DNA of 47,699 nucleotides from Acidobacteriota bacterium (GTDB taxonomy: Bacteria > Acidobacteriota > Terriglobia > Acidiferrales > UBA7541): the NCBI GenBank assembly GCA_003224085.1, contig QHYK01000075.1, positions 1 through 47,699 of the forward strand, read 5' to 3'. The translations under genes and the position numbers were made by a program. The first letter of the stretch is position 1, and each line of letters begins with the position of its first letter. Of the stretch, positions 12,503-15,519 are shown one piece after another. Below the pieces are notes generated by a model. It saw nothing but the letters and a program-made list of their open reading frames with translations. It was not told where the DNA came from and ran no database searches.

Positions 12503-13198
12503 ATGGACAAACGCATCGCTTCCGCCGACGCGGCCATCGCCAAGCTCACCGACGGCGCCACCATTCTCATGGGCGGCTTCGGCCTCTGCGGTATCCCGGA
12601 AAACCTCATCGCCGCCGTCCGTCGCAAAGGCACGAAGAACCTCACCGTCGTCAGTAACAATGCCGGCGTCGACGACTTTGGCATCGGCCTGCTACTCCAG
12701 CAGCGCCAGGTGAAGAAGATGATCTCGACCTACGTGGGCGAAAACAAACTCTTCGAGCAGCTTGTCCTGAGCGGCGAGCTGCAGGTAGAGCTGAATCCGC
12801 AAGGCACGCTCAGCGAACGCCTGCGCGCCGGCGGCGCGGGCATCCCCGCGTTCTACACGCCCACCGGCTACGGCACCATGGTCGCCGAAGGCAAAGAGAC
12901 CCGGGAGTTCGACGGCCGCATGTACGTGATGGAGCGCGGCTTGCGCGGCGACTTCGCGTTCATCAAAGCATGGAAGGGCGACCGCTGGGGCAACCTCATT
13001 TATCGCAAGACCGCGCGCAACTTCAATCCTATGATGGCCACCGCCGCCGACTACGTCATCGCCGAAGTGGAAGAGCTGGTGGACATCGGCCAGCTTCCGC
13101 CGGACCGGGTGCACACGCCCGGCATTTTCGTGGATGCGGTTTTCCAGGGTCCCAAGTACGAGAAACGCATCGAGCGCCGCACCACGAGAAAGATTTGA
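12503..13198 (+). CDS. 3-oxoacid CoA-transferase, subunit A
   Basis: A 231-residue alpha subunit of succinyl-CoA:3-ketoacid CoA-transferase (SCOT). The N-terminal [18 protein letters not shown] (19-36) is the glycine-rich CoA-binding signature. The length matches ScoA/AtoD proteins. With subunit B it moves CoA from succinyl-CoA to acetoacetate, opening ketone bodies and short-chain keto acids to the TCA cycle. The ribosome-binding site upstream of ATG 12503 is weak. Unusually, the subunit B gene is not next: a small membrane-protein gene starts one base after the stop (TGA at 13196-13198, ATG at 13200). Confidence 0.93.
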
Positions 13199-13199
13199 T

Positions 13200-13625
13200 A
13201 TGTCCTTTACGCCACTCATCTTTACAAATGAAAAGGATTTACTCGCGGACGCTCCAAAGTCGCGTGTTCCATGGGCGTTCGCCATCTCCTGTTGTGTGTA
13301 CTATCTTCTGGCCGGTCGCGGCCTTGCCGCCGCTGTGCCAGTTTTTGCCAAATTATTCCATGGATTGGGCATTCCAATTCCATTTCCCACGCGCTTTCTC
13401 GTGGCCAGCTATTCGTGGATTTTTCCGGTCGTCTTTCTCGGAGCGGTGATGCGCACCATCGTCAAGCGATTCGCGCTGCCTGACAAACTCCGCCTGCGAA
13501 TCGCCAATGGGGTCCTTGTCTTTGTTGGAGTGGTTTCCCCGATATTGGTTGTGCTTGTTTTTTATCTACCTCTTTTCGTTCTGATCCGGAGACTCCAGGC
13601 GGCGAGGGAACTCTTATGCCTCTGA
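13200..13625 (+). CDS. small membrane protein between scoA and scoB
   Basis: A 141-residue protein with three predicted membrane segments (about 24-45, 60-82 and 104-128), a short cytoplasmic-looking N terminus and a basic C-terminal end. Its ATG is one base after the scoA stop and its own end overlaps the scoB start by ten bases, so all three genes are almost certainly translated as one coupled operon. The motif [20 protein letters not shown] loosely resembles the last part of GspF/PilC inner-membrane proteins (a small family of such proteins is scattered in Acidobacteria), but I would not assign a function on that basis. Its position inside a metabolic enzyme operon is odd. Confidence 0.75.
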
Positions 13626-14287
13626 CGGAAGAGCACAAGCGAGAGCGGATTGCGCGGCGGATTGCGCTGGAGCTGCGCGACGGCTACTACGTCAATCTGG
13701 GCATCGGCATGCCCACGCTCGTCGCCAACTACGTCCCCCAAGGCATGGACGTAATTCTGCAGTCCGAAAACGGTATGCTCGGCGTCGGGCCGTATCCGCT
13801 CGAATCCGAAGTTGATCCCGACCTCATCAACGCGGGCAAGGAAACCGTCACCGAGCTTCCCGGCACTTGCTATTTTTCTTCCGCCGATTCTTTCGGCATG
13901 ATTCGCGGCGGCCACGTGGACCTCACGGTTCTCGGCGCGCTGCAAGTGGACGAAAAGGGCACGCTTGCCAACTGGGCGATTCCCGGCAAAATGCTCAAAG
14001 GCATGGGCGGCGCCATGGACCTCGTCGCCGGAGCCAAGCGCGTCTTCATCGCCATGGAGCACGCGACGCGCGACAGCAAGCCGAAAATCCTGAAACAATG
14101 CACGCTGCCGCTCACCGGCGTTGAAGTCGTGGACCACATCGTCACCGAGCTTGCCGTCATTGACGTTACGCCGCAAGGCCTGCTTCTCCGTGAACTCGCG
14201 CCCGACGCCACCCTCGAGCAAGTGCAATCCCTCACCGAGCCAAAACTGCTTTTGCCGCCTGGTGGCCCCAAGGCGATGCCGACATGA
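13616..14287 (+). CDS. 3-oxoacid CoA-transferase, subunit B
   Basis: A 223-residue beta subunit of SCOT. The active-site glutamate is E51 in [10 protein letters not shown], which forms the glutamyl-CoA thioester in this family. [13 protein letters not shown] (27-39) and [18 protein letters not shown] follow the ScoB/AtoA pattern, and the length is typical. The ATG at 13616 lies inside the end of the preceding membrane-protein gene, so translation is probably coupled. Partners with the subunit encoded at 12503-13198. Together they suggest use of acetoacetate or butyrate-type substrates, or of amino-acid breakdown products. Confidence 0.94.
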
Positions 14288-14306: not shown

Positions 14307-14615
14307 ATGGACGCGCAAGCCCCAATGCCCAAGCGGCTCAGGATCATTTTTCGAGTTCTCGCTGCTCTGACTTTGCTGGAAGGTCTTGTAGGTCTCTACG
14401 GGGTGGCCTTAGATATTTCTAGGGTTCCATTCGTGATGGAATATGCGCACAAAATGTATCATTCTTATGCCCATTCGAGGTTGCTTCTGTTTTTGAGACA
14501 GGAAATATTGCGCTTGGCTTGCAAATGCTTACTTACGGCTTTCCCAGTCGCGGCAGGAGTCTTGATCTTTTTGGCTTATCGCTACTGGGGCATCCCCGCG
14601 CGGCCATTGCGGTGA
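14307..14615 (+). CDS. small membrane protein
   Basis: A 102-residue hypothetical with two predicted membrane helices (about 14-33 and 77-96) separated by a hydrophilic stretch rich in His, Tyr and Arg (MEYAHKMYHSYAHSRLL). The start at 14307 has GGAGG at 14293-14297, nine bases upstream, so it is likely translated. It follows scoB by 19 bases and probably belongs to the same operon. I do not recognise the family. It has a second-helix layout reminiscent of the membrane protein at 13200, without clear sequence identity. Confidence 0.6.
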   Translation: MDAQAPMPKRLRIIFRVLAALTLLEGLVGLYGVALDISRVPFVMEYAHKMYHSYAHSRLLLFLRQEILRLACKCLLTAFPVAAGVLIFLAYRYWGIPARPLR

Positions 14616-14755
14616 GGCCAAACCCCGGGAAGGCCAAAGATGCCAAGGCAACGCAAATAAATTGAGGAAGGAGCGGCTTCAAGATAAGGCTGAGTACGCC
14701 GATAAAGACGAAGAAGGCAAAACGGATTCGCTTGGCCAAGCAAGGAATGCGAACC

Positions 14756-15109
14756 ATGCGCGAGCGGCCGAAGATGCCCCCGATCTCGGAGGAAATGAAG
14801 CAGTGGTCGGCGATGCTGAAAACGGAAGTGAGCGGCTGGCCGCAAATCTCGACGAAACCCATGTTTGGGATGATGGGACTCTACCGGCGCAAGAAAATTT
14901 TCGGCGGTCTGCCGGTCACGCGGGGATTCGACACTCCCAATTCCGTCATTTTCCGATTCGATCCCATGCCGCCGGATTTGGGGCAACGGGCTCTGAGGGA
15001 CAAGCGCATTTCTCCGGGCAAGCGCTGGTTTTCGTTTGACGTGCGGTCCGCGGCAGACCTGCGCGAGGCGTTGTGGTGGCTGAATCAGGCGTACGAGAAA
15101 ACGAAATGA
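14756..15109 (+). CDS. conserved hypothetical, TfoX-N-like
   Basis: A 117-residue soluble protein. The start at 14756 is preferred because AAGGA (14742-14746) is nine bases away; a TTG at 14732 is possible. The core KPMFGMMGLYRRKKIFGGLP resembles the N-terminal TfoX/YjbR-type domain, where a single strand pair PMFG..G.Y..... is diagnostic. Near-identical relatives are frequent in Acidobacteria, with no proven role. The C-terminal WFSFDVRSAADLREALWWLN is well ordered and likely helical. In TfoX itself this domain is tied to competence regulation, but the likeness is too weak to transfer that function. Confidence 0.65.
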   Translation: MRERPKMPPISEEMKQWSAMLKTEVSGWPQISTKPMFGMMGLYRRKKIFGGLPVTRGFDTPNSVIFRFDPMPPDLGQRALRDKRISPGKRWFSFDVRSAADLREALWWLNQAYEKTK

Positions 15110-15210: not shown

Positions 15211-15519
15211 ATGGATCGGCATTCCATCGTGATCGTAAGCCTGCACACGCCCAAGGAAAAAGTGTGGGGCGAATTGCTGACCATCAATCCGTCCGGTGTA
15301 ACGTTGCGAGGAATCGATCTGAATTCCTTTGACCATTTCATCCGCCAGATGAATGAGCCCGACGGCGAGCACGTCGGGTTCCCCACGGTTTTCTTTCCCA
15401 TGCATCGCGTTGAACGCATTTCCCTTGATGAGCCTGCCGGTTCGATCCCTTCGATGAACGAGCTTTTCGCGCGCAAACTCGGCCGCTCGCTGCAGGAATA
15501 TCTGGCCGAATTCGCCTAA
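15211..15519 (+). CDS. conserved hypothetical protein (102 aa)
   Basis: A 102-residue soluble protein beginning MDRHSIVIVSLHTPKEKVWG. The first half looks like a small beta barrel (alternating hydrophobic strands VIVSLH, VWGELLTI, GVTLRGIDL), as in Sm/SH3-like folds. The second half has FFPMHRVERISLDEP and a C-terminal helix. I recall similar proteins in Acidobacteria, encoded singly. An AGGAGGAG lies at 15185-15192, further than usual (18 bases) from the ATG, which is the only start in frame. GCTAAGCTA just upstream of it (15178-15186) repeats the -10-like motif seen before cspA. Confidence 0.7.
   Translation: MDRHSIVIVSLHTPKEKVWGELLTINPSGVTLRGIDLNSFDHFIRQMNEPDGEHVGFPTVFFPMHRVERISLDEPAGSIPSMNELFARKLGRSLQEYLAEFA

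Follow-up and report, generated by a model that had tools for sequence, protein, structure and literature searches.

Among described systems, the closest to the locus reported here are hotspots of horizontal gene transfer that lie between core genes and lack integrases. In the portion of Oliveira et al. (2017; PMC5635113) on which we draw, half of the hotspots are without evidence for mobile elements, and recombination at the bordering core genes is proposed, from statistics, as the engine. Gene traffic also occurs inside operons: in mosaic operons that arise through in situ displacement of genes (Omelchenko et al. 2003, as cited in the portion of PMC2684527 used here), an orthologue takes the place of an operon gene. 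The locus that we analysed is the junction between scoA and scoB, the subunit genes of a 3-oxoacid CoA-transferase, in a window of 47,699 nucleotides, the whole of the analysed stretch (contig QHYK01000075.1 of the Acidobacteriota assembly GCA_003224085.1). As the hotspots are characterized in that portion of PMC5635113, this slot resembles them: conserved genes enclose an interval whose gene content turns over, no mobile element is recognisable in it, and recombination is proposed at the flanks. It departs from them in having as borders the two subunit genes of one enzyme, in its content of one to three genes, and in keeping partial copies of a border gene as scars. The slot was compared between species of one genus and against three control gene pairs, a basis that differs from strain-level, genome-wide hotspot counts. 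With mosaic operons, as that source presents them, it shares horizontal gene traffic inside an operon, and it differs in that unlike genes are added. Titles and abstract openings in the openly licensed PMC literature yielded no paper about genes between scoA and scoB. We think it probable that the scoA-scoB junction, flanked by the two subunit genes of a single enzyme, is a slot in which genes turn over without an integrase, and that the membrane protein X is its present occupant (Table 1).

Table 1. Features of the sco locus in the window, and occupants of the corresponding slot in genomes of the same genus.
Feature	Window coordinates	Strand	Genomes	Description
scoA	12503..13198	+	window	3-oxoacid CoA-transferase subunit A, 231 aa; left slot border
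left repeat copy	13164..13181	+	window	R-I-E-R-R codons near scoA end; imperfect 18-base direct repeat bracketing the slot
X	13200..13625	+	window	141 aa membrane protein, current slot occupant; family profile resembles PilC transmembrane hairpin
scoB	13616..14287	+	window	3-oxoacid CoA-transferase subunit B, 223 aa; right slot border
right repeat copy	13644..13661	+	window	R-I-A-R-R codons near scoB start; scoB scars of relatives end in or near here
Y	14307..14615	+	window	102 aa membrane protein, 3' of scoB
M28 peptidase			G018, G030, G019, G016, G011, G026	6 genomes
carotenoid-synthesis protein, PF04240			G016	beside M28
lipocalin-like ORF, PF13924			G030	beside M28
X-type membrane protein			window, G008, G004 (two copies)	3 genomes
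DUF2625 + Imm1-like protein + X-type gene fragment			G006	
serine hydrolase PF00144		opposite	G003	
275 aa protein with hydrophobic segments			G009	
DUF7693 protein			G012	
97 aa ORF, no match			G007	weakest case; near relative G010 has a 165-base spacer
no convincing gene			G029, G017	258 and 228 bases

Both subunits of the window's enzyme are intact and score above the cut-offs of the ScoAB/SCOT family: scoA reaches 290.6 bits against TIGR02429 (cut-off 128.5) and scoB 324.2 bits against TIGR02428 (cut-off 243.55), and ScoA is close to the solved structures 3rrl and 3cdk. The genes of ScoAB relatives outside the genus are nearly always adjacent, whereas the window's pair is parted by another gene. 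The original prediction had described this gene as coding for a three-helix membrane protein with a one-base gap in front and a ten-base overlap behind, and the arrangement is borne out by the coordinates: X begins with an ATG at 13200 and stops with a TGA at 13625, only base 13199 lies between it and the scoA stop, and the overlap with scoB covers 10 bases, 13616-13625. Three helices are plausible for X, which is highly hydrophobic with peaks inside residues 28-60, 62-92 and 105-123, but the structure model (AlphaFold2 on a four-row alignment) is too poor for a fold search, with a mean pLDDT of 57.6 and a pTM of 0.27. GC3 is 0.563 in X against 0.841 in scoA and 0.759 in scoB.

How constant is the gene that stands between the two subunits? 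We examined 36 genomes of this genus of soil Acidobacteria, that of the window included and one genome per species, with stretches from 33 of the other 35. Orthologues of scoA and scoB flank an interval in 32 of the 36 genomes, both genes lying on one contig (the window counts among these; scoA is partial in G012 and G005); left out were two genomes in which no orthologous pair was found (G015, G032) and two in which scoB lies at a contig end (G025, G022). Identity to the window over the aligned stretches is 80-96% for ScoA and 83-96% for ScoB, setting aside an 18-residue scoA fragment of G005 at a contig end (72%). The junction itself is variable: 16 of the 32 exceed 200 bases, 14 hold at least one gene-sized ORF and 18 are without a gene, and the 16 junctions that are not enlarged have spacers of 3-165 bases. 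At least 7 kinds of gene occur among the 14 occupied junctions, of which 3 have an intact X-type gene and 11 have other contents. Subunit-gene adjacency can evidently be abandoned repeatedly within one genus, and this variable slot, found through a survey of scoA-X-scoB order of the kind that the original prediction had proposed, is a larger result than X itself.

Several features of the occupants bear on how they came to be there. The first cargo ORF can start between -4 and +1 bases from the scoA stop in 6 of 13 co-oriented cases (G018, G019, G026, G012, G016 and the window), its start being taken as the first possible start codon. An integrative element with its own recombinase would be recognized by an integrase or transposase, and a Pfam scan of 15 slot proteins, one of the six M28 proteins among them, showed neither. 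On a weakly resolved scoAB tree of 31 genus rows (G005 omitted; good support for 11 of 31 inner branches), a minimum of 8 switches between enlarged and empty is needed, and a minimum of 13 changes in the kind of content, scar-only junctions being scored as enlarged and as a kind of their own. Parsimony counts 6 gains for the M28 peptidase; we do not read these as six separate gains, since M28 divergence between slots follows scoAB divergence (Spearman 0.78) and old presence with losses fits equally. M28 may thus be an old tenant, often lost or replaced, and because its divergence tracks that of scoAB, the pattern may largely reflect old inheritance and loss and not exchange.

The comparison with other gene pairs sets the slot apart. 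Within the same genus, a second CoA-transferase pair is split in 0 of 28 cases (domain spacings 40-172; the count omits further paralogous pairs in G004, G007, G009, G010 and G025), sucCD in 0 of 33 (spacings 346-482) and etfBA in 1 of 33. The original prediction had held that the two CoA-transferase subunits are normally adjacent, and so they are in the 11 other genera of the family, where 0 of 44 scoAB pairs are split (spacings 58-270; an extra G127 scoB copy near a contig end and three second-type scoB genes are omitted), the two largest spacings, in G116 and G127, consisting as read of spacer sequence alone. Fisher tests of 14 of 32 against the controls give p values from 7e-7 to 8e-5, with relatedness ignored. 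Further afield, 75 named loci outside the genus (L069-L143), drawn from the best 80 of 579 candidates, include three approximate gaps of more than 200 bases; one of these loci, L099 from an Oceanicaulis MAG, has between its scoA and scoB an ORF of 176 aa whose start is signal-like (1551-2081). Splits of scoA and scoB outside the genus are rare, not unique, and as far as seen the variable slot is confined to one genus.

Could relaxed constraint alone account for this? Loose spacing between scoA and scoB would then tolerate any insertion, and cargo and scars would be neutral debris that needs no special recombination. The wide range of spacers in the unenlarged junctions, several of them with palindromes or short repeats, is what such tolerance would give, and insertions do occur elsewhere, since the sole split etfBA pair, in G021, has a spacing of 853 with a 215-codon ORF as its insert (L240 1121-1768). 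Yet etfBA spacing is itself variable, at 158-382 in the other 32 of 33 pairs, and has taken up an insert only that once, and in 6 of 13 co-oriented cases a start for the first cargo ORF is available at the scoA stop. Together with the form of the scars described below, these observations make relaxed constraint an unlikely explanation on its own.

If X were a membrane anchor or transporter helper of the transferase, as the original prediction had suggested, its placement would reflect assembly of a membrane-bound complex. The tight spacing of X in the window would suit this, as would the distribution of its relatives: clear X-type genes occur in 3 of the 101 genomes searched, all of the window's genus, and all 4 copies lie in the slot. 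X is therefore not absent from all relatives; such absence is what the original prediction had named as counting against its own reading. X is also more than a chance ORF, because related proteins of 129-136 aa occupy the same place in G004 (two copies) and G008, with alignment Z values against shuffles of 13.8-19.5 relative to X. The family so defined (X, the two G004 proteins and the G008 protein) reaches Z 12.9-19.5 in 4 of its 6 pairs; in the weak pairs, the first G004 protein gives Z 2.5 against the second and Z 3.2 against the G008 protein. A recent duplication in G004 is unlikely, as its two proteins share 26 of 121 residues at that same low Z. Otherwise the anchor reading fares badly: X-type proteins are only 27-28% identical to X, with 7 invariant columns of 151 in their alignment, against the high identity of ScoA and ScoB across the genus, and the same position is geneless in 18 of the 32 junctions and in 11 others is taken by the M28 peptidase, DUF2625 and other genes or by an X remnant only. 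We consider an anchor role highly improbable; nothing found in this analysis links X to CoA transfer, and we infer that its own job is unrelated to the transferase. More generally, the siting of a gene between the two subunits of an enzyme is weak evidence of a functional link. The alternative that the original prediction had offered, a chance insertion that was kept, comes close, with the amendment that the junction is a variable slot of which X is one tenant.

What X might be is suggested by profile comparison. X has no Pfam or NCBIfam match above cut-off and none to PF00482, and it has no PHROGs or PADLOC match at E 0.01 and none in plasmid or phage records; we accordingly do not read it as a gene from a phage, a plasmid or a defence system. 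Among all PDB sequences the X family profile finds PilC (3jc8), the inner-membrane protein of type IV pili, at E 0.0022, the sole distinct sequence at E up to 1. In 396 genomes of the phylum the profile has matches in 177, the window's included; those listed are mostly ORFs of about 400 aa matched at the same part of the profile, of which three were read and one, when scanned, is a T2SSF/PilC-type protein (PF00482, 224.7 bits). The likeness lies in the first transmembrane hairpin, with the motif P-x-F-A-x-L-F-x-G-L-G-x-x-x-P-x-P-T-R. A PilC-hairpin profile, built from PilCs that the X profile itself had picked, scores X at 30.1 bits against a maximum of 14.9 in 2000 block shuffles. Taken singly, X and the second G004 protein exceed all 2000 block shuffles in their match to the hairpin, the first G004 protein matches weakly (7 of 2000 shuffles reach its score), and the G008 protein alone does not match (784 of 2000). 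X is thus like PilC/GspF proteins (NF052606; PF00482) in sharing this motif and unlike them in the rest: at 141 aa it does not have their full-length architecture of about 400 aa with two cytoplasmic domains, and it scores 12.5 bits against the PilC model NF052606, whose cut-off is 700. Judged from these alignments, X is probably a small membrane protein with a PilC-type hairpin at its core. Other matches within the family are to CyoD (one member, E 0.00025) and to MASE1 (one member, E 0.0014, below cut-off).

The slots also preserve pieces of their own border. A search of the sequence outside scoA and scoB in the 32 loci against all their scoA and scoB genes found seven places. Six are scoB 5'-end copies lying within slots, spread over five genomes: G030 (two), G004, G011, G006 and G029. 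A separate search found a 30-base scoB-start copy in G017 that scores above 100 of 100 shuffles, so that scoB-5' copies occur in 6 of the 16 enlarged junctions, five of them clear and one weak. Relative to scoB, each scar starts no more than 5 nt from the gene's start, and the copies break off at nt 29-60. Scored with a leave-one-out scoB-head profile, the first six reach 62.6, 58.0, 52.8, 39.4, 16.2 and 7.1, against -2.9 for the best of 62 flanking stretches; the G017 scar, at -4.9, is not above the flanks and rests on its likeness and on its kinship to G029. The first scoB copy of G030 and that of G011 continue in frame into the M28 gene, the scoB-M28 joint falling beyond the repeat and not within it, and in G011 the spacer before the scar resembles, by eye, the spacer before the true scoB. 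All scars differ clearly from the true scoB start, and among genomes taken at one per species no recent event was caught. The window's own slot has no scoB-5' scar, by the scar searches and by the leave-one-out head profile. A 23-base scoA-like match upstream in the window (E 0.005) was treated as noise.

Two scars are hybrids in which the copied scoB head is followed by a tail that resembles scoA and has a stop of its own, MLTEEQKRKRIERRKVRRVTQD in G004 and MPLTDEQKRERIERRTVR in G006. After the R-I codons the tails are 18.4 (G004) and 20.4 (G006) bits more scoA-like than scoB-like, on nucleotide profiles in which 31 real scoA ends score +17 to +38 and 32 real scoB starts -33 to -16. A blind scan with the tail profile gives 28.3 for G006 and 17.1 for G004, each exactly in register with the head, compared with at most 14.8 in 62 flanks. 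The hybrid tail is clear in G006 and less firm in G004, where it stands slightly above background and is thin by itself. The stop that closes the G004 hybrid is 4 bases upstream of the following X-type gene, an arrangement resembling a scoA-cargo junction. Over the 105 bases leading up to its scar, G004 shows about 72% identity with the stretch in front of the true scoB of G006, and the bases beyond the join are alike as well; the first X-type gene of G004 runs out into the scar in the way that the G006 X fragment runs out into the true scoB. A scar that had once been a scoB start would be expected to look like this. Two lesser signals were discarded, a scoA-end flag in G016 (16.0 against a maximum of 14.5), taken as noise, and a scoA-like peptide end in G018 that falls below background on the profile.

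Copies of the scoB 5' end ahead of cargo could also arise by tandem duplication and random loss, in which a block of scoB and cargo is duplicated, a neighbour from downstream comes to lie inside and scoB 5' remnants are left behind. Such a history would account for the remnants themselves, but none of the queried slot proteins was found downstream of scoB in the stretches of 34 loci, no scar derives from the body or 3' end of scoB in the 32 loci, and the scoA-like tails require a different junction; we therefore hold it to be very unlikely. That the scars found always come from the same end of the same gene, two of them with scoA-like tails, likewise speaks against the neutral debris of relaxed constraint. 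The combination of scoB-5' copies and scoA-like tails with a stop suggests instead that misaligned recombination joined slots of different alleles.

The mechanism that we propose for the turnover slot would run as follows. DNA of other alleles or species would enter by homologous recombination in scoA and scoB, in keeping with the flanking-gene model as set out in the cited portion of PMC5635113. Occasionally, the scoA end of one allele might pair with the scoB start of another through similar R-I-x-R-R codons. Such mispairing would put slots in tandem, the crossover product reading slot 1, a scoB head joined to a scoA tail, slot 2 and scoB, and a scoB-5' scar would remain; the cargo would ride on the sco transcript. 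The model leaves the first entry of foreign genes unaccounted for. Since the recombination joints seem to be preserved as readable scars of scoB head and scoA tail, the joining step is directly testable. A bolder version can be put forward only tentatively, and we do not favor it as it stands: the coding ends of scoA and scoB might act jointly as an attachment-like site without a dedicated recombinase, at which alleles with different cargo recombine at the shared R-I-x-R-R codons, swap cargo between species and sometimes stack it, producing an integrase-free cassette array in a housekeeping operon, its added units marked by scoB-5' scars and expressed from the sco transcript.

Two properties of the border genes are relevant to these proposals. 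The first is the 18-base likeness between the scoA end and the scoB start, which is identical at 12 of 18 positions in the window and at 11 to 17 across the 32 junctions, the scoB copy lying at nt 29-46 (the R-I-x-R-R codons) in 24 of the 32 genomes. Its mean of 13.7 compares with 11.1 for windows in the scoB body, 56 of 640 of which reach the observed value, so that the likeness of the gene ends is modest. The second is a possible sign of recombination within scoA. The two halves of scoA conflict in their histories at 366.7, above all 12 of 12 random codon splits (122.8-249.3), and without G004 and G014 at 276.1, above 8 of 8 (94.1-208.0), whereas the halves of scoB, at 135.5, fall inside the random range (104.0-166.3) and show no excess conflict. 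Between G029 and G017, the 3' half of scoA is 95% identical and the 5' half 86%. Agreement with scoB is poorer for the 3' half of scoA than for its 5' half. The conflict between the scoA halves fits recombination inside scoA and is no proof of slot exchange. A conflict between the scoA and scoB trees looked strong at first; when the two genes were joined and split by codons at random, however, five such splits conflicted about equally, and we made no use of it.

The region 3' of scoB and the spacers offer some further observations. The second small membrane protein that the original prediction had noted after scoB is present, as Y; aligned with X it does not rise above shuffles (Z -1.2), leaving no detectable kinship. 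Among the 36 genomes of the genus, Y has a relative in G032 only, an ORF of 168 aa (L238 1186-1692), of which Y looks like an internally shortened version, and no orthologue of the window's scoB was found in that genome. The ORF end beside this relative reads as what we take to be the tail of an IS3-type transposase. Farther 3', the window encodes a TfoX_N-like protein (14732-15109; E 0.00061, with 20.3 bits where the Pfam cut-off is 30.1) and a 102 aa protein (15211-15519), both of which lie 3' of scoB in many relatives, the 102 aa protein near scoB in 33 of 34 loci and on the opposite strand in 13 of them. Arrays of 7-base units such as AACTGTAAACTGACAACTGAAAACT occur before scoB or its scar in 6 of the 32 junctions (L146, L147, L152, L157, L161 and L162), and a strict heptad-repeat pattern finds 0 arrays in the window. 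By eye, palindromic elements of the kind TGGCCGGTCTTTAGACCGG recur in the scoA-scoB spacers of L160, L161, L162, L166, L169, L172 and L152, and palindromes with GGGGCG-like stems in those of L147, L154 and L170.
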